Shown: in pieces, positions 7,256-19,531 of the stretch
How the letters are laid out: each line of letters starts with the position of its first letter
Position numbering within the stretch: the first letter of the stretch is position 1
NCBI GenBank assembly: GCA_011800155.1
Contig: CM022373.1
Location: forward strand, 248,001 to 312,000
Reading direction: 5' to 3'
Origin: Flammulina velutipes
Taxonomy: Eukaryota; Basidiomycota; Agaricomycetes; Agaricales; Physalacriaceae
DNA: 64,000 nt
Translations under genes and position numbers: made by a program
Notes under the pieces: model-generated
Database searches by the model: none
What the model saw: the letters and a program-made list of their open reading frames with translations, nothing else
Told to the model about the DNA's origin: nothing

Positions 7256-8843
7256 ATGTGCACTCGTTTCATCGAGCCAGTTTCAACTTTCGAAAACTCG
7301 AACAGCGTTGATGGATATGTTCGCGACGGCGCGCGGTACGATATATATCATCAGCGATCTTAACATATCTCTTATTCCTTTTGGGATGTAGAGATCCTGC
7401 TTCAGATGCATATTACTCTCTTCACTCTGCGTCCGCCGTGCATTCTCTCCCCGCCGAAATCATGATTCTCATCTTTCACTCTGCCTTTACTATGCCTTTC
7501 CGCGTCGCTCCGGAGACCATAGGCGCTCAAGGGCCGTGGGCATTAGCTCATGTGTGTCAACGCTGGAGAGCCTTAGCTCTTTCGGAGGCCAGCTTATGGT
7601 CGTCTTTCTATTTTAGCAACATCCCCGAACAGCTATGGCGCCCATTCCTTCCTGGGCTCCGTGCAGCCATTGATATGATCCTATCCCACTCCCGGAACGC
7701 ACCTCTTGACTTCATATTCCCTTCTCGTCAGGATGTGTCAGAAGTACTTCTTTATGACCTGCTGAAGCAGTCTTCGCGGTGGAAGTCGGTCAAGATGCTT
7801 GGCATGTCTGATGAGCTCAAGCCGTTAATGAAGGTGGCGAGGGACAGTAGAGTGGCGAACAAGTCAGCCTTCGAGCGCCTGGAGGTGTTGCAGTTCAAGA
7901 TGGAGAATTTCTTGGATTTGGAGATCATGGAAGCTTTTAACACTGCTTTCCGTCTCCGAAGCCTAACGCTAAATGGGTATTGCGGCCAGATCATGAACGA
8001 CTTTGTCGGATCGGTGGACTTCCCATGGTCCCAACTGACGCACCTCAGCATCAGTACCGACTTTTCTATCCTGGCGTATAGACTTCTCGCGAGCTGCGTC
8101 AACCTGCAGACCTTCCGCGAGATCAGCCATATGTTTACTTGGTTTTCCGCCGACGCGCATTATCCTATCATTACACACGACAAACTCAGGTCTCTGCATG
8201 TCACGAACCATCGGCTACTGCTCTCACTGGAGTGCCCAAATATCACGCATATCACCTGTTGTGAGGAGTCGGTATCGGAGGTTGCGACTTTTGTGCGTCG
8301 CTGCTGTGCGTATCCAGGCGCGATCCCTCCTGAGTCGGTTGAGGTGTGGATTCGTCGACCTCACACCGGAGGACATGCCGCTAGGAGTTTTCTGTCGCCA
8401 TTTTCCTGGGCGGTACGAAAGCTCACACTTGATGTGAAGCGTCCATGGGGAATCACAGACCTGCTAGACGTCTGCCTAGCCATGACCTACCCGGAAATCC
8501 TTCCACAGGTGTCTCATCTTGCATTACGCCTTCACTTCCGACAGAGAGTGGAGCAATTGCTTTCGGAGGAGAATGTTACTGGCGTTGGGGCTATGTTACA
8601 GAGTTTCACGGTGCGACAGAGACTGAAAACGGTGACTATCGAGGTGCTGTATTGCGATGAGGACGCGATGCGGACGCCGAAGCCTCCATCGAAAATTATT
8701 CAATGCTTTTTTTCGCGCCTTGCAGAGCGGAAACCAGCGGGATTGAATTTGGAGTTTATGATGGCTCTTGATAGTAAGTAATTATGTGTATTCCAGGCTT
8801 GTGATATTGATAATTTGTTCTAGCGTCTGGTCTTGGAGAATGA
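7256..8843 (+). CDS. F-box-like protein
   Basis: Model of three exons: 7256-7335, 7392-8773, 8824-8843 (493 residues). The long frame from 7381 has only TTG as an upstream start, so an upstream exon is needed. A GTACGA...TAG intron (7336-7391) joins in frame to a frame whose first ATG is at 7256. Residues about 45-90 contain VHSLPAEIMILIFHSAF and WALAHVCQRWRALALSEASL, the F-box-like pattern (LPxEI..IF....L..V...W) common in mushroom fungi. The remainder is a divergent leucine-rich substrate-binding region. The 3' end is ambiguous: reading through stops at 8781, while the consensus GTAAGT at 8774 and TAG at 8823 give the end chosen here. Substrate unknown. Confidence 0.65.
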
Positions 8844-9259: not shown

Positions 9260-11144
9260 ATGTCGACGATGACAACGACAGAACATCCCGCAAAGCTGTC
9301 GTCGGCATCCCGCACGCTGTCGGCGGCGTCGTTGCGCAAACTCTCGGAATTGGCAACGACACCACTCAAACCCGTCATACAGTCTCTGGAAGCTCATTTC
9401 GAGTACGTCGTCTCCGACAGCGACCAGGAAAATGTCTTGACGATTCTCTGGGTAGATTTGTGCCGTCAAGGGTACCAAAGGCTAGAAGACTGCAGACATT
9501 GGCGGTGGCGACATGGTCCATCCTAATTTGGGGATCAGTAACTTTATGGATCTTTCTTTGGTGCGTATAGGCGTATAGATGCCTCGCTATCACTTGATCT
9601 GACAGCTATCAGCTCAATCCCTGCTATATGGCCTCTGCTATTCGCGTACCAATTCTGGGTCCTGTATATCGACAAGGCGTCCATTCACGGTGGCCGCGCT
9701 AGCAAATGGTTCAGAAGTTGTGCATGGTGGAGGTACTATGCAGACTATTATCCAGCCTCGTGCGTCTTCTGCATTCTTTTCCGCAATACCCTCGCATTGA
9801 TTCTGTCATTATTGCCTCTAGGCTCCAGAAGGTCGTGTCTGCTGCCCTTCCGTCCGACGCCGTAAACTTACCATTCGACAGGAAGCGGAACTCCCCCCGG
9901 ATCGCAACTACGTCTTCGGATATCATCCTCATGGTATGTCCTTTCCGTTCTATTGAAGAACTAGTTCTTATGCATAAGTAGGAATCATCGGCATGTATGT
10001 CAGTCCCCTTTCCCCTCGAGAACACCCATTGACACCTTGGCCAGGGGTGCGTTTGCCACATTTGCTACCGAAGGTTGGTGATACATCTGTGTGGGAGGTC
10101 AATGCGCTGACTGATGACGATAGCCACCGGGTTCTCAAAGGCATTCCCTGGCATAACGCCTCACCTGCTAACCCTCGCGAGCAACTTCAAACTCGCGTTC
10201 TATCGCGACATAGCTCTGTATCTCGGAATCGCCAGCGTCAGCAAGAGATCTTGCAGCAACATTTTGCGTAGTGGACCTGGTCAATCTATCACAATCGTCG
10301 TTGGTGGCGCCGCTGAGAGTTTAAGCGCTCACCCGGGCACTGCGGACCTAACCCTTCGGAAAAGGTCAGTGTCTTCTTCTCCCATGTATAGATCCGCTCA
10401 TCATGCTACGAACCGTCTAGGCTGGGGTTCATAAAACTTGCCATTCAGCACGGGTACGCCCCTTGACATGCATCTAATCCTGTCTCTCATTTGAATGCAC
10501 AGAGCCGACCTCGTACCTGTCTTCTCATTCGGCGAGAACGACGTGCGTGCCTCATACGTTGATTACCTTCCTCAACTGAGCCTCGTCCACCATAGATTTT
10601 CGAACAGATGCCCAACGAGCGAGGCACGGCGGTGTACTACTTCCAAAAGCGGTTCCAGTCGATCTTCGGGTTCACCCTTCCTCTCTTCCACGGCAGAGGG
10701 ATGTTGAATTGTGAGTGTCTTCTCCTGCTTGATCTCTGCCGTTATCTTCGTTCGTTCGTTATTGAATATTGAACGGGCGCCGTGATGGGGTGGACCTTTC
10801 GTTAACTAGTGCATGTGAGACTGACATGATATACAGACAACTTGGGTCTTCTCCCTTATAGACGGCGCATTGTCGCTGTTGGTGAGTCAGCCTATCTCTG
10901 CGATTGAATAGACGGTGACAATCTGCATGTAGTTGGAAGGCCCATCAGTGTAACAAAGTACGAAAAACCAGATGTGGAGGAAATCCGTAGGATCCAGAAT
11001 TTGTACATGGCTGAATTGACCAGGTACGAGTTTTTATCTTTGGCTTGCGGGATTGGTATGAAAATTTTCATCTATAGGATCTGGGATACGTACAAGGATG
11101 ATTTCGCTAAAGCCCGCAAGAGGGAATTGCAGTTTATTGATTGA
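9260..11144 (+). CDS. DGA1: Diacylglycerol O-acyltransferase type 2 (DGAT2), 14 exons with two microexons
   Basis: Transfers an acyl group from acyl-CoA to diacylglycerol, the last step of triacylglycerol synthesis at ER and lipid droplets. Fourteen exons sum to 1131 nt (376 residues): 9260-9402, 9456-9560, 9613-9759, 9822-9831, 9882-9933, 9982-9994, 10045-10073, 10124-10364, 10421-10453, 10503-10542, 10596-10710, 10837-10881, 10933-11023, 11078-11144. Two hydrophobic segments lie near residues 60-95 (LAVATWSILIWGSVTLWIFL and IPAIWPLLFAYQFWVLYI). The catalytic block is DRNYVFGYHPHG, with the HPHG split by an intron, followed by FPGITPHLLTLASNFKLAFY, IVVGGAAESL, LGFIKLAIQHGADLVPVFSF and PLFHGRG. 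The C-terminal half has GRPISVTKYEKP. Exons of 10 nt and 13 nt are required to keep frame and family residues. Confidence 0.95.
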
Positions 11145-11667
11145 ATTGCTATCATTCCGTCCTACTTACTAGGTACTTTACTTAAAAGCCTGTTGTTTTT
11201 ATAGATTTCGTTTCTTATTGCTCAATTCAAGAATAGCTTGACCTCTTGTACGACATCGCTTTCGCTTCTTACTCTCTTTTCTTAGTGCGCCACGCTCTTT
11301 CAGTCATAAATAAATTGTTCATTGACACCTGGTCTATCCGAATAAATACCGTCCAAGCAACTATAATTATATAGGGTATCCGCTAGTTGTAATGGGACCA
11401 AATAAAACAACGAATGATATTAGACAACGAGTGATATCAGACAAGGAATGACACAGTAGCAAGCAGAGAAGGATATAATAAGATAAATGCGCAAAGCTCT
11501 ACAGATAAGTAATGAAGATGAGGATGATGATGGCACGGCCGATTCGATGACGATAGCGATAAATACAGATACTCAACTGGAAGGACGATGAGTTAACGTG
11601 CGGTGGAAGAATGGTAAAGAAACGTACGTTATACAACGGATGTTCCCAGCCAGCGACAGTTCGAGTT
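11145..11667. other. Convergent 3' flanks of DGAT2 and the megaenzyme gene
   Basis: AT-rich sequence between two converging genes. No coding, RNA or repeat feature recognised. Confidence 0.4.
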
Positions 11668-14600
11668 TTAAGCACGCTTGGTATAGTTCGACCAAGAGTT
11701 GTCCACTCGCTTGGCCGGCCAGCCGACGTACACAGTCCCTGCCTCAGCAACTTCGCCGGATGTCAACAGTGTGTGCTCGGAAAGCATACTGCTGTCCTCC
11801 ATGGAAGCACCGGATAGAAGACGGGATCCAGAACGCATAGCACAACTAAAAAGCATGTAAGTTAGATGGACCATAATCGAAGAAGTGAAGGACGTACCCA
11901 TGGCCAATCTTCAGCGGGTTCAAGGCAAAGTTACCACGAGAGTTGATGTGTGCTACGACTGAGCAGTTGTCCAAGGCAACGTTATCACCAAGCTAATTGA
12001 ATCGTTAGTAAAGAATCGGAATTAGAAGGCATCGATAAAACTCACCTCAAGGAGATCAGGCTCAGTCATCAAACCAGTGATACCACCAGCGAAGATGGCA
12101 CAGTTCTTGCCGATCTTCGCGCCGAGCGCGCGATAGAACCAGACCATGTAGGCAGTCCCAGCGAAGGGCGCAAGGACACCGCCATTTCCGTATCCCTTGT
12201 AAATCGGCCGCGATAGCACGAGATGAAGCTGCCATCGCTGGCAGTAACTGCTCTTGTCCCACTCGCACTTGCCAGGGCGACGACGTCCGATGACGATCCA
12301 CTTGGTGAGTACCACCCAGAGCAAGGCGATGATGGCCTGCAGGTTCAAGGCGACGATGAATGCGACAGCAATGAAGGCGTAGACGAGCCCGAACTGATAC
12401 CATGTTTTGCGGAAAAGACGGAGGTGGGGGAAGGTGCGCTGGATGAGGCGGAGGCCCTGTGCTGCTAAGACGGCGCTGATGGACCAGTACGCGGCGGAAA
12501 GACAGGCGACGGCGATGTTGATGGTGAGCAACATGATGTAAGGGAACACGAAGAAGTCAGCCTGGCGTCTGTAGAATGCGCGTCCGAATGGTGTGCAGGT
12601 GTCGCTGTTAGGGTCCGCTTCCTTGCCACCTTTGTTGAAGCAGATAGCTTGGCCACGATCTAGAAGGAAAATATAATCAGAATTATTCCTTGCGCGTAAA
12701 TAGAGCGGACTTACCGCTTCCCATCCAGGTCGAACCGTCCTCGTACTTGGCACCGCGAGTGGTTAATGTTCCAGAACCCAGTACAGCCCGACGTCCGACG
12801 ACAACACCAGGAAGTAGCACAACACGATCCGCAATCATAGCTAAAGCAAAGGAATTAGAAACGAACGGCGATATCAAGAAAAGTAAACCACGTACATCCA
12901 GCATTGACCTTGATCCGAGCAGTTCCAATGCAATCAGAAGTATAAACCTCAGAACGCGAACCGAACACAACGTCATCGCCAATCTCAAGTAACTCGGGAT
13001 CGGGACAGTAGATGCCAGATCCGGGCCAGTAAACACGCTTGCCGATCTTTGCGCCCATCCAACGATACACGATAGAGACGGCCTCGTAGTGCGTACCCAA
13101 TATAGAGAACGCGCGCTTGAGGTTCTCTTGGGAAAGAAGGGAACCGTTGATGTAGCGACGGAGGAGAGCCCACTGTGAAGTTTCTGCTGCAGTCGAGGGT
13201 TTGTTGAGACCGAATATGCGCTTCACGATGACGGCGAGGAGCATGTGCAAGATGGGTACGAGAACGGCGCGAGCTACTCGGGAAATGGCATGGTACAGAA
13301 CACGCTCGGGAAGAGCGAACCAGTAGATGACATGGATCAAGGCATTGCCACCTGGAGGAATGAACTCCGTCTGGTGGAGCATCAACCATATGGCACCAAC
13401 CCATGGAGCATCTAGAGAAAAACGAGTTAACCTTCAATGCGAACCAAAAAGGAAAAGAACGTACATGACACGAGGGTAACAAATCCAATGACAGGATACG
13501 CGATGAACAACTTGAGGAGGAAATGAGGTTCTCGAAGAGACGTGCGGTTATAAGCGGCGAATTCTGGAGGTGAAGGAGACTCTAGTGACGAAGCGTGAGG
13601 ACCATAAACAGCGCCGTCCGGAATGAAAGCGCCGGGTGATAATTGGGTATAAGTGTTAATGACTGCGTTCCTGCCCAAGACGATCTTGTCAAGTCGGAAA
13701 AAGCCATCTCGCTCGACGCAGAAACCGCGGACGAGCGAACCATCTACGCGACAGCCATCCTCGAGGTAAAGGAGATCGAATTCGCCGAGCTTGGCCTTCT
13801 TCGAGATGGAGACGTTCTTGCCGATGTGAGCGCCAAGCATACGGAAGTACAGAACTTCGAGAGAAGGGTGCATAGCGAAGACACCACGGCCCGCGGTCCG
13901 CAAACTTTGGTTGACAATCCACCAACGCAGATGGTAAACCGACCAGCTAGAAATGTCGTTAGATAGGTCATGGGGAAGGGATAGATGATGACTTACAATC
14001 TATAGGTCCCTGGCCTATAACGACCAATGACGATCCATTTAAAGAGTATCGAAGCAAGTGGAGAAACAATGCGCGAAGCCAGACGCGCGCCCAAGATCGA
14101 CAAAAGCAATGCGCCCATGCGCTGCTCGAAACTCGTGTCGATGAATGGCACCAAAATTGACAAGATGTACAGAAGCAGGGCCCCTGCGCAAATGTCAGTA
14201 AAAGGGTTGAAACAAATGAGTTAATGCGTACAAGTGACACCTGTCTTCAACGGGTAGAAGAAGATGAAAGGAATAATTTGCACGAGAAGAGACAATGGAT
14301 GATTCTGTCCACGGAATTTGGCGGAAGTTGCCGACTCGTCGTGCCAGTCGAAGTTGAGGGTAGCGTCGGAGGGTGTACCAGGCTCGTACTGCTGGAACGA
14401 CTCGACCTCCAAGGTGTTCGACTGGGCCTCGATCAATCCAGCGATGCCACCGACAGTGCTATTGGTGAAGATGGCGGATACGGCAATGCTGACATTGGCG
14501 CGCTTCCGGATGTGGTAGGTCAACTTTCCGAGCAAGAGGGAGTTGCCACCGAGTAAGAAGAAATCCGAGTCGGCGGTGATCATGCCAGACTCCATGTTGA

Positions 14601-17009
14601 GCAAGTCGGCAATGATATCGCGAACCAACAAGGCATGATCGGACATAGAGGACGCGTTCTGGCGCATGATCTCTTGCTCCATCGAAGCGAAATCGACACG
14701 ACCATTGCCGGTTCTTGCCAAAGGACGGGTGAGAATATGCAAAGGCTCTGGTAGATTGTACCCAGGAAGGACACTGCCGATGGAGAGCTTCACAGCCGCC
14801 ACATCTGGAGCCGATGTTGCAGCCATGGACACGAAAGCCTCGAGACCGCCGTCCGTGCGGAAGCGCACGGCAACGTCAAGAACACCAAGGGTCGAAAGGA
14901 GAGCATGCTCGAGCGCGTGCATGTCGAAAGAAACTCGGGAGCAGGAAATGGGCTCAGAGAGCGGCGACATGGGATGCGGAACGGCAGCTTCAAAGTGACG
15001 CTGCGATATGGGCACGCTGTCGGTCATGACACCAAGTCCGAACCTGGTCGCCAGTTTAATCCGCAAAGGCTTTCCAGCACTGCGATTTGGTTAGAATCGT
15101 GAAAAAAAATTGAGACTAAGCGATACATACCTGTTCTTCGGCAAATCATTCATGTACACAATGGCATATGGCCATTTGGAAGGGTGAAGATTCTCGCTAT
15201 ACATTCATTTAGACAAGTTCAAGCCAAGACGAAAAGAAGAAAACTCACCGGAGAATGTCATGAAGTTGAGCGAGACCTATCCGTGGAACTCCCGGAGCCG
15301 TGACTATGACCACACCAATAGCTTCCTGAAGGACATCGTGCTCGATAGCGAATGCAAGGGTTGACTGAAGAAGAAAAAAATAAATTCAAATGATACAAAG
15401 ATAGAAAAAATGGATGAAATACCTTGACGTGATCCTTCGCTGCTGTAACGATTGCTTCCTCAACTTCAAATGGTGAAATGACTTCGCCTCCCTTGTTGAT
15501 AATCTCCTTCGAGCGCCCAGTAATGTACAGATAACCATCGGTGTCCATGTAGCCAACATCGCCAGAGTCGAACCAACCTTCGCTGGTAAAGGCAGACGTA
15601 TCCAGAGGAACATTGCGATCCGGAGAGGTCTCATAGCCCTCAAACGTGGGTAGACCGCGTACGGACACTGCGCCAGTCTTGCCTATCGGCTGTTCCCGCT
15701 CCAAATCAGAAGGATCGCGAATTGAAATGTAGGGCCCGCAAGCGAGTCCTGAACAGCCAGGGCGCTCTAGTTGATAGTTCGTAGGCGGCGTTGCGATGGG
15801 CATACATCTGGAAACATCAAATTAAAACAAAGGAGATTGGATGATAGAGATCTTGACGTACTCTGTCATTCCATATGACGGCAAGATGACTGCACCGACG
15901 AATCTTGCCTTGAGATCAATGGCGAGGGAGGGCAAGAGGCCACCAGCGGCGTTACAGATCATGCGAATGCTCATGTCCCGTTGTGGTATGATATGGTCGG
16001 GCTGGGATGTGAGGATAGCATGATGAATTGTCGGTGCTGCGTAGTACCTGTCGGTGCCTGTTAGCCAAAAAGAGGAGAATGCGTTGATAAAACCGAAACA
16101 TACCAGGTTGCGTGTAACGTCGAGGCTAGACTCCAGAAGGCGATAGCGTCAAAGCCGGCGCACATGATTGCGCTGCCGCCAGAGAAGATGGGGGCAAGCA
16201 GATTACGGACAATGCCACCGACGTGGAACAAGGGCATCATGTTTACTGAAAGGGAGTGTCAAAGGATTGGACTTGGAGAAAAAAATGTGAGACGCACGGT
16301 TAACATCTCGCGGCCTGAGGCCCCAGGAATGCACTACGGCCCAAGTACCGACGATGAGAGAGCGAAGGGTGTAAGGAACGACCTTTTTCTTGCCACTGGT
16401 GCCGGAAGTGTGAAGGACCAAGGACTGGTCCTCGAGTCGATGGGGGGCTGAAGGATGTGTGGGGATCACGATGTCGTTGCCGAGGAGCGTCATGTCGAAC
16501 AGTCCGCAGGGGCCAGAGTCGCGTCCACGGAGGTAGATGACCTCGCAATTGAGCTCCTTTTGTAGGGCAACGAGCTCGAGCCTATGCTCAGCGTCTGCGG
16601 TGGTGAAGATGGCTCGTGCGCCGAGTCGTTCTGCGTCCTCCCTGAGTTCTACTGCCGTACAACTTGCGTTTACGGGTGCGGTGGTGTGGTAGCAGGCGAG
16701 GGCTAGGAGAGCGACTGCATTTTCTGGACTTGTGGGCAAGGCAATCATGACGCGGTCATTGGGACCCAAAGGACGACGGGTACTCGCATGGGGGAGCGCA
16801 AAGTTCTCGACAAAAGTGCGCAATACAGAGTGGGAGAGGGCCGGTCGGGATAACTCCGGGGCGTGGATGGCCGGGGCGGAAACGGAGGAGAGGCAGTCGA
16901 GGAGGGTGTTGACCGACTGAGAAGCGTTGATACGCTCGAGAATGAGGTCTCCAAGTGATGAATCCGTCCGCTGGGGAATGTCGGACAGAAACGAAAGTGG
17001 GATTGACAT
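11668..17009 (-). CDS. NRPS-like megaenzyme: adenylation - carrier - multi-pass membrane/hexapeptide (Pls/PosA-like) region
   Basis: Fourteen exons sum to 4644 nt (1547 residues): 17009-16298, 16245-16104, 16047-15862, 15807-15423, 15364-15249, 15196-15131, 15079-14241, 14183-13997, 13946-13465, 13411-12896, 12840-12715, 12659-12046, 11992-11898, 11845-11668. Residues 1 to about 690 are an ANL adenylation domain with A3 LVLHTSGTSGKKKV, FHVGG, A7 GWFDSGDVGYMDTDGYLYI and A8 GRSKEIINKGGEVISP. The A10 core reads RTGNGRVD, so the usual Lys is Arg663. A carrier domain follows with FFLLGGNSLLLG; Ser716 is the predicted phosphopantetheine site. Residues about 790-1547 alternate membrane segments (WIVIGRYRPG, later WIVIGRRRPG) with left-handed beta-helix hexapeptide blocks such as MLGAHIGKNVSISKKAKLGE and VLLPGVVVGRRAVLGSG. 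This resembles the terminal domain of bacterial poly-lysine synthetases (Pls/PosA). Substrate cannot be read from sequence. Confidence 0.88.
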
Positions 17010-18544: not shown

Positions 18545-19531
18545 TCAATCGATAGGTGGGAGGTCCCAGAGAGCACGTAGGTGACGCTCCTCCGGGGCGC
18601 TCTTCCTGAGATTATCATAATCATACCACACCACCTCTTCCTCAGTATGAGCCACAAACGCGCGCTGGCGCAGTGAGTACGCAGATCCCTTCAGCTGCAG
18701 CACAGACGGATCGATATCCGCGCCGTCCACTGGCTTCAATGCCCGGTGTGCGAGAAGAAGCTGGTTGGGGGGAACAAAAAAAAAACTGCGCGTTAGCGTT
18801 GGGGAGAGACGAGCGGACGGAGAATTCCAACCGACCGTATCAGGGAACGTTACTGGTCTTCTGTACTGGACTTTGATAGACTTGAGGATGAGGGAGATAC
18901 CCTGGCCTATGATCAATGAATCGACGCCTCCAAGGCGGTGCCCAAGAGATCTCATCCATTGGATGCGACTCTAGAGGTGATTTAGAATTGAGCGGAGAAT
19001 TCGATGCGCGAGTCTAAAGGCTTGTACCGATTCGAAGAAGCGTACTGTTGATATCAAGTTAGTTGGTTTAGAGTGGGAAGGAGTGGTGCATGTGTACCAT
19101 AACGAACGTTATTCAAATGTCTTGGGAAGCGTCAGTAAAAACTCAAAAATTACAAGGTTTGTGGGCCTCTGACTCACCTAAAGGGATCCTGGTCGCCCCA
19201 TACTATTGTTTGTTCCCAGAAGTGCCGAGGGTCGTAGCCGGATTCGCATAACGACTGACGAGCCTTTTGGAGAGCTTCCCGACGGTCGTCTATGCAATGA
19301 TCAGAAGGAAATACACAGAGTGGCCGTGCATCGTCACCTAAAGACTCTCCGAGATTGTTCGAAGCAGCTGCGCCGGCGCCCTACTCAATTGTCAATATCA
19401 GTGAGCGCGATTTATTTGATGACACGAACGTCGGACGACGCTGCGGAAAAGCGTCTAGAAAAGGTATGACTAGAAAGAGTTTGTATCTTCGCGGGTTGGC
19501 GACAGATATGAAACAGTTTATTGAGGTTCAT
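18545..19531 (-). CDS. Hotdog-fold acyl-CoA thioesterase-like protein, predicted mitochondrial
   Basis: Seven exons (19531-19430, 19380-19338, 19289-19178, 19120-19098, 19044-19028, 18970-18836, 18760-18545) sum to 648 nt, 215 residues. The N-terminus is rich in Arg/Ser without acids (TFSRRFSAASS), a typical mitochondrial presequence. The mature part has WGDQDPFRHLNNVRYVRFFE, the 4-hydroxybenzoyl-CoA thioesterase signature (D-x-x-x-H-x-N-N), then IQWMRSLGHRLGG and GISLILKSIKVQYRRPV, and ends with an RAFVAHTEEEVVWYDY strand. Two exons are 23 and 17 nt and jointly encode the catalytic loop. The family hydrolyses acyl-CoAs; the substrate is unknown. It lies on the same strand as the megaenzyme, 1.5 kb upstream of it. 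Confidence 0.88.

Follow-up and report, generated by a model that had tools for sequence, protein, structure and literature searches.

A membrane enzyme of Flammulina velutipes and other fungi with an oxalate-CoA-ligase-type adenylation domain and a Pls-type terminal domain: a candidate polymalate synthetase

The gene of interest lies on the minus strand of a 64,000-nucleotide stretch of the Flammulina velutipes genome (assembly GCA_011800155.1, contig CM022373.1, positions 248,001–312,000; hereafter, the window). A minus-strand splice search leads from an ATG at window position 17009 to a stop codon at 11668, by way of 14 exons and 13 GT-AG introns of 48–58 bases each (Table 1); the last exon was placed by hand so as to reach this stop. 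The spliced frame contains 1550 codons, a small correction to the 1547 given in a preliminary description that had been made from the letters of the window alone and that had likewise proposed a single spliced frame. This gene model is more than a chance assembly, because the window protein aligns over its full length (100%) to single annotated proteins of Hymenopellis (73% identity) and Armillaria (71% identity). Mucidula is also among the relatives, and only 11 of the 1550 residues are missing from more than half of 120 homologues. The alternative of two separate genes was rejected: the relatives are single proteins, and a member from Novosphingobium is encoded by one intron-free open reading frame (ORF). 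Judged by these homologues, it is confirmed that the gene is real and that it codes for one large predicted membrane enzyme.

Pfam places three domains on the window protein: AMP-binding at residues 81–405 (E 6e-40), PP-binding at 688–752 (8.3e-12), and Hexapep at 1209–1239 (7e-8). In agreement with the preliminary description, the matches listed at E≤1 include none to a condensation, thioesterase or reductase model, and the carrier motif GGNS is present with its serine at exactly the expected position, Ser716. Downstream of the carrier, hydropathy analysis gives six membrane segments (starting at residues 815, 853, 1023, 1090, 1291 and 1351) that alternate, as had been proposed, with left-handed beta-helix (LbH) domains, of which there are three. 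The segment at 853 is borderline (1.63), as is another at 734 within the carrier domain (1.62), and other family members show fewer or different membrane segments at the same cut-off. The predicted model of the Novosphingobium relative has six long helices (pLDDT 91.0, pTM 0.91).

The terminal half of the protein is, on sequence comparison, homologous end to end to the terminal domain of the bacterial Pls/PosA enzymes. Firstly, the TIGR02353 model matches it with 189.2 bits (E 1.2e-55), as against 32 bits for the generic Hexapep model. Secondly, a tblastn comparison with an annotated Pls/PosA protein covers 94% of the terminal half at 25% identity (E 6e-24). Together these results also lead us to reject the reading of this half as only an LpxA-fold acetyltransferase. 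The window protein misses the curated TIGR02353 cut-off of 423.1 bits; its relatives from Aureobasidium, Polychytrium and Novosphingobium score 199, 222 and 192 bits, respectively. Within the Flammulina assembly, a TIGR02353 search (three candidates scored) matches at the window locus only, as two exon matches. The three LbH-bearing units are homologous to one another (E 1e-13 to 5e-25). LbH acetyltransferases have a catalytic histidine; in the third LbH domain, whose nearest structural neighbours are maltose and galactoside O-acetyltransferases, the candidate histidine and a glutamate are kept in all 236 aligned sequences, in Novosphingobium, and in five bacterial Pls/PosA proteins. The PDB matches include no solved structure that spans a Pls-type terminal domain in full, which excludes nothing.

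The Pls-like layout claimed in the preliminary description thus holds for the terminal half; its substrate class does not. The best solved relatives of the adenylation (A) domain are oxalate-CoA ligases (5ie0, E 9.7e-55), solved examples of which go by the names AAE3 and Pcs60. An Asp in motif A4 and a Lys in motif A10 have functional roles in A domains; at A4, the window protein reads HVGG, whereas all five aligned bacterial Pls/PosA proteins read FD. For wider comparison, an oxalate-type set was defined from the matches listed in a genome scan: the 79 unannotated prokaryote sequences with pocket motifs similar to those of the solved oxalate-CoA ligases. On average, the window A core is 34% identical to oxalate-type ligases and 22% identical to Pls A cores. 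In a FastTree phylogeny of 50 A cores, the fungal type and Novosphingobium form one clade (support 0.991), the 27 oxalate-type sequences sampled from the 79 form another (0.848), and the two clades together exclude five Pls A cores (0.95).

The substrate pocket of the family differs consistently from that of the oxalate type. In window numbering, all 79 oxalate-type sequences carry His247, Arg316, Ser317 and Ala348, with Ala, Gly or Ser at 251. The family alignment (236 rows) has Gly247 in 235 rows, Asn317 in 236, Cys348 in 233, and Arg251—equivalent to a residue that lines the pocket in luciferase—in 234, while position 316 is Cys in 181 rows and Ala in the remaining 55. Save for one Ala at 348, the exceptions are gaps. 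A further difference at position 350 was discarded, since it depends on the placement of a one-residue gap. By these comparisons the A domain is of a re-specified oxalate-CoA-ligase type and not of the amino-acid type; an isopeptide poly-amino acid, the polymer first suggested for this protein, is therefore unlikely. Compared with its diacid-ligase relatives, the pocket has lost one arginine and acquired another elsewhere, which suggests as substrate a different acid that, like malate, bears a second carboxylate.

Between the A core and the carrier lie two A_sub units. A profile of bacterial Pls A_sub sequences matches the second of these (97.8%, E 1e-12), and matches the first more weakly (81%, 1e-5); the profile was built from 8 of the 13 available bacterial sequences, after dropping three loci without a long ORF, one with a shorter ORF only, and one that was off-motif. 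At the lysine position of the second A_sub, Lys occurs in 8 of the 236 rows, the most frequent residues being Glu (49), Ser (40) and Asp (31). An AlphaFold2 model of exon 7 (residues 537–818, with 75 relatives) reached a mean pLDDT of 88.8, and its top PDB matches by Foldseek are adenylation–carrier (A-PCP) structures of nonribosomal peptide synthetases (NRPSs; E 2.9e-9, with low TM-scores for a model of several separate domains). The second A_sub is probably a leftover NRPS-type unit. This arrangement is most simply explained if a Pls-like enzyme had its A core replaced, or preceded, by a complete oxalate-ligase-type A domain and kept its old A_sub.

On present sequence data, the family is widespread in fungi (Basidiomycota, Ascomycota, Mucoromycota and chytrids), and its substrate pocket is almost invariant. 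A first homologue search gave 1073 proteins at E≤1e-3 of 7997 scored, and those with species names among the best 120 are from mushroom-forming fungi. A length-filtered search matched 440 of 7991 proteins; the best 120 of these include, at ~35–41% identity, (i) Ascomycota (Aureobasidium, Neurospora, Trichoderma, Fusarium and others), (ii) the chytrids Polychytrium, Rhizophlyctis, Cladochytrium, Geranomyces and Thoreauomyces, and (iii) the Mucoromycota Absidia, Gongronella and Umbelopsis. Members bear public names such as "acetyl-CoA synthetase-like", "peroxisomal-coenzyme A synthetase" and "Oxalate--CoA ligase", which hide the nature of the family.

In 84,980 prokaryote species genomes, a scan found at least 80 loci; among the matches listed, the terminal part is matched by one, Novosphingobium percolationis (locus L008), and the other 79 are A-domain matches, six of which extend to the carrier. 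The L008 gene is a single intron-free ORF. Its 1531-aa product shares the A pocket, the second A_sub, the carrier and the terminal domain with the fungal proteins, and the gene is directly followed by an ORF for a phosphopantetheinyl transferase (PPTase; ACPS match 2.2e-13, start uncertain). Nine of 397 Sphingomonadaceae genomes were matched: that of L008 over the full query, and eight by short matches in open frames of 990–1470 aa that are probably ordinary Pls. At a stricter limit, the genome of L008 alone was matched among 385 Alphaproteobacteria. Plasmid-borne Pls/PosA genes of Sphingomonas and Rhizobium (L003, 3973–8534; L007, 3108–7777) also directly adjoin a PPTase gene. The Flammulina genome has three PPTase-type matches, one with a stop codon inside it; some of the three may belong to fatty acid synthase.

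The Novosphingobium protein falls outside the fungi both in the A-core tree (support 0.966) and, weakly, in a FastTree phylogeny of a hand-picked sample of terminal domains (0.82). A recent fungus-to-bacterium transfer was considered, but is at odds with this placement. Because L008 lies outside the fungi in both trees, an old bacterial origin of the family is possible, not proved. In the terminal-domain tree, the Geranomyces and Thoreauomyces members (P0143, P0162, P0173 and P0195) lie inside the Ascomycota; this topology suggests that the gene was passed from one fungus to another.

Among described systems, the polymalate (PMA) synthetase of Aureobasidium, and not Pls, comes closest. Polymalate producers are reported in Penicillium, Aureobasidium and the slime mould Physarum (PMC11905612), and the role of the polymer in fungi is described as not fully understood (PMC9210645). 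The A. melanogenum synthetase (QHD40385.1) has a 5049 bp gene, A-like, T (carrier) and C-like (condensation-like) domains, six transmembrane regions, and no thioesterase (TE) domain (PMC9210645, PMC11905612). Removal of the gene left growth unaffected, restoration brought back one third of production, and the enzyme has so far not been isolated (PMC9210645). In A. pullulans, a 96.5% similar homologue lies within an NRPS-like cluster, separate from the single NAPAA cluster (PMC11905612). Our Aureobasidium member P0124 (A. pullulans, 1690 aa) is 39% identical to the window protein over 97%, and shares with it the pocket motifs NMMPLFHVGGIVRN, CNAAGGLLPSLA and YGMTECMPI. A search with P0124 yields one close Aureobasidium group: P0124, P0123 (without species name) and P0236. 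We infer that QHD40385.1 belongs to this group, whose member P0124 fits its published description in domain order, length and class. By that description, the window protein resembles the PMA synthetase in its A-like, T and C-like domains, in the number of its membrane segments (six) and in lacking a TE; the lengths are ~1682 aa for the PMA synthetase (if all 5049 bp are coding), 1690 aa for P0124, and 1550 aa for the window protein. In the open-access literature searched, laboratory work was found for one probable family member only, the wider family was not connected to polymalate, joint coverage of polymalate, NRPSs and fungi concerned Aureobasidium or polymalate itself, and nothing was found on polymalate made by basidiomycetes; this is consistent with the earlier remark that such proteins are little studied in that group.

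We propose, with a probability of roughly 0.45, that the window protein is, like the polymalate synthetase of Aureobasidium, a membrane-bound polymer synthetase in one polypeptide, and that it would build a polyester from malate or an acid much like it. In this scheme, (i) the A core and first A_sub would adenylate a small acid of the hydroxy or dicarboxylic type, L-malate being the likeliest, (ii) the acyl group would be loaded as a thioester onto phosphopantetheine at Ser716, and (iii) the terminal domain, comprising three repeats of two membrane segments plus an LbH domain, would pass the acyl group on to a hydroxyl, either that of the next unit or that at the chain end, with His1475 of the third LbH domain as the probable base. 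The ester polymer would thereby form at the membrane without a thioesterase, in an architecture that sets a complete oxalate-ligase-type A domain ahead of a presumed leftover NRPS A_sub, a T domain and a Pls-type terminal domain. One description weighs against this proposal: PMC9210645 places the membrane segments of the PMA synthetase N-terminally, which lowers our confidence in the polymalate assignment. Those of the window protein follow the carrier, and the hydropathy profile of P0124 gives one hydrophobic segment before its carrier, not six.

Next in probability, tentatively and behind the polyester synthetase, is a membrane acylation enzyme that makes no polymer but attaches a single activated carboxylic acid to a glycan, lipid or protein acceptor at the cell surface. 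The LbH is an acyltransferase fold, the neighbours of the third LbH domain are O-acetyltransferases, and homologues are widespread and conserved, as would be expected of an envelope function. The maltose and galactoside enzymes are single-domain proteins of ~180–200 aa, several of them solved with CoA; the window protein holds three LbH units in one membrane chain together with a covalent carrier. Against this reading, the known relatives of the terminal domain as a whole, Pls and the fungal Epls, make polymers (PMC7179176), and so does the probable Aureobasidium relative.

Oxalate itself is an improbable substrate. An oxalyl-carrier enzyme would fit oxalate handling in a wood-decay fungus: the nearest solved A domains are oxalate-CoA ligases, some genomes use the label "Oxalate--CoA ligase", and the window gene is the best oxalate-ligase-like match in the Flammulina genome (by a six-frame search, which sees single exons only). 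The A core and first A_sub are indeed homologous to the solved ligases (PDB 5ie0, 6qjz and 8aff) and to the FadD7 model. The solved enzymes are 514–543 aa long; in the window protein, the A domain is fused to a carrier and membrane domain. Against oxalate, the four residues common to the oxalate-type set have been exchanged in its family for Gly, Cys/Ala, Asn and Cys.

A poly-amino-acid synthetase of the epsilon-poly-lysine kind is more improbable still, even though Pls/PosA share the overall layout with the window protein: a T domain, no TE, and a homologous terminal domain in which six helices accompany three tandem domains. The Pls A domain is of the amino-acid type, whereas the window protein combines an oxalate-ligase-type A core with a degenerate second A_sub, whose motif lysine is nearly always lost; the closer A-core identity to the oxalate-type set, the HVGG in place of FD, and the shortfall from the TIGR02353 cut-off all separate the two. 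In addition, a true fungal Pls, Epls of Epichloe, is 51% identical to Streptomyces Pls (PMC7179176). The least probable product is an iron-binding carboxylate serving like a siderophore, for which the Novosphingobium surroundings (L008, 812–11849) offer an ORF with sub-cut-off TonB-siderophore-receptor matches and, by eye, a ferritin-like ORF, but the latter has no NCBIfam match, another receptor-like ORF (also by eye) has no Pfam or NCBIfam match, and the context comes from one bacterial locus only.

If the proposed fungal polymalate enzyme belongs to a family of four major fungal groups, the role of polymalate can be tested in mushrooms and moulds that serve as genetic models; Schizophyllum commune (P0086) and Neurospora crassa (P0182) each have a homologue. 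The design is also unusual in that a CoA-ligase-type A domain would supply a carrier and an LbH domain that is triplicated and embedded in the membrane, with a spare A_sub as a putative domain-swap scar. If the polyester proposal is true, ester polymers would be made in this way with no need for a thioesterase. The most far-reaching version is that all major fungal groups sampled, including mushrooms, produce at the membrane a polyester of malate or a closely related acid, a largely unnoticed polyanion across the kingdom, by means of a chimera of oxalate-ligase-type A domain and Pls-type polymerase that was probably acquired long ago from bacteria; this we consider unlikely.

Table 1. Features of the gene and its predicted protein (window coordinates)
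Feature	Position	Strand	Residues and details	Basis
Whole gene	11668..17009	-	14 exons, 1550 aa	splice search; homologues over 100% of length
Exons 1–7	17009-16298, 16245-16104, 16047-15862, 15807-15423, 15364-15249, 15196-15131, 15079-14232	-		
Exons 8–14	14183-13997, 13946-13465, 13411-12896, 12840-12715, 12659-12046, 11992-11898, 11845-11668	-		
Adenylation core, oxalate-CoA-ligase type	15513..16850	-	~54–445, with introns	Pfam, PDB matches, alignment
Adenylation-core motifs		-	A4 PLFHVGG; Arg251 (codon 16207-16205); YGMTECMPI	
First A_sub	15037..15512	-	446–550, with introns; catalytic-type Lys539 (codon 15072-15070)	Lys in 236/236
Second A_sub, NRPS-type, probably vestigial	14629..15030	-	553–686	profile, AlphaFold2, Foldseek
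T/carrier domain	14431..14625	-	688–752; Ser716 (codon 14541-14539)	PP-binding 8.3e-12; Ser in 236/236
Membrane segments 1–2	14026..14244	-	815–833, 853–871, with intron	hydropathy; helices in Novosphingobium-relative model
LbH domain 1	13589..13849	-	~914–1000	
Membrane segments 3–4	13212..13522	-	1023–1041, 1090–1108, with intron	hydropathy; Novosphingobium-relative model
LbH domain 2	12658..13064	-	~1158–1256, with introns	Hexapep match
Membrane segments 5–6	12319..12555	-	1291–1309, 1351–1369	hydropathy; Novosphingobium-relative model
LbH domain 3	11713..12138	-	~1430–1536, with introns; Glu1455; candidate catalytic His1475 (codon 11950-11948)	

Some relatives extend beyond the end of the window protein. 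After the equivalent of residue ~1550, 52 of the 122 listed homologues P0001–P0122 (mushrooms, where named) carry a RING-type zinc finger pattern, which occurs in none of the 168 other relatives (P0123–P0290), nor in the window protein or its four best-scoring relatives. A six-frame pattern search over window positions 10801–11700, downstream of the stop, did not find a RING domain. Such a tail, of a ubiquitin-ligase-like kind, is a surprising addition to a polymer synthetase. In the bracket-fungus members P0064, P0080 and P0088, a charged C-terminus, coiled-coil-like by eye, replaces the RING.

Three further features lie elsewhere in the window. Upstream of the gene, at window positions 18545–18967 on the minus strand, lies a sub-threshold thioesterase-like match (4HBT_2, 8.5e-5). 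On the plus strand, a convergent neighbour gene with diacylglycerol acyltransferase (DAGAT) matches occupies positions 9542–10431, and a 489-aa ORF with an F-box-like match at its cut-off occupies positions 7312–8778.

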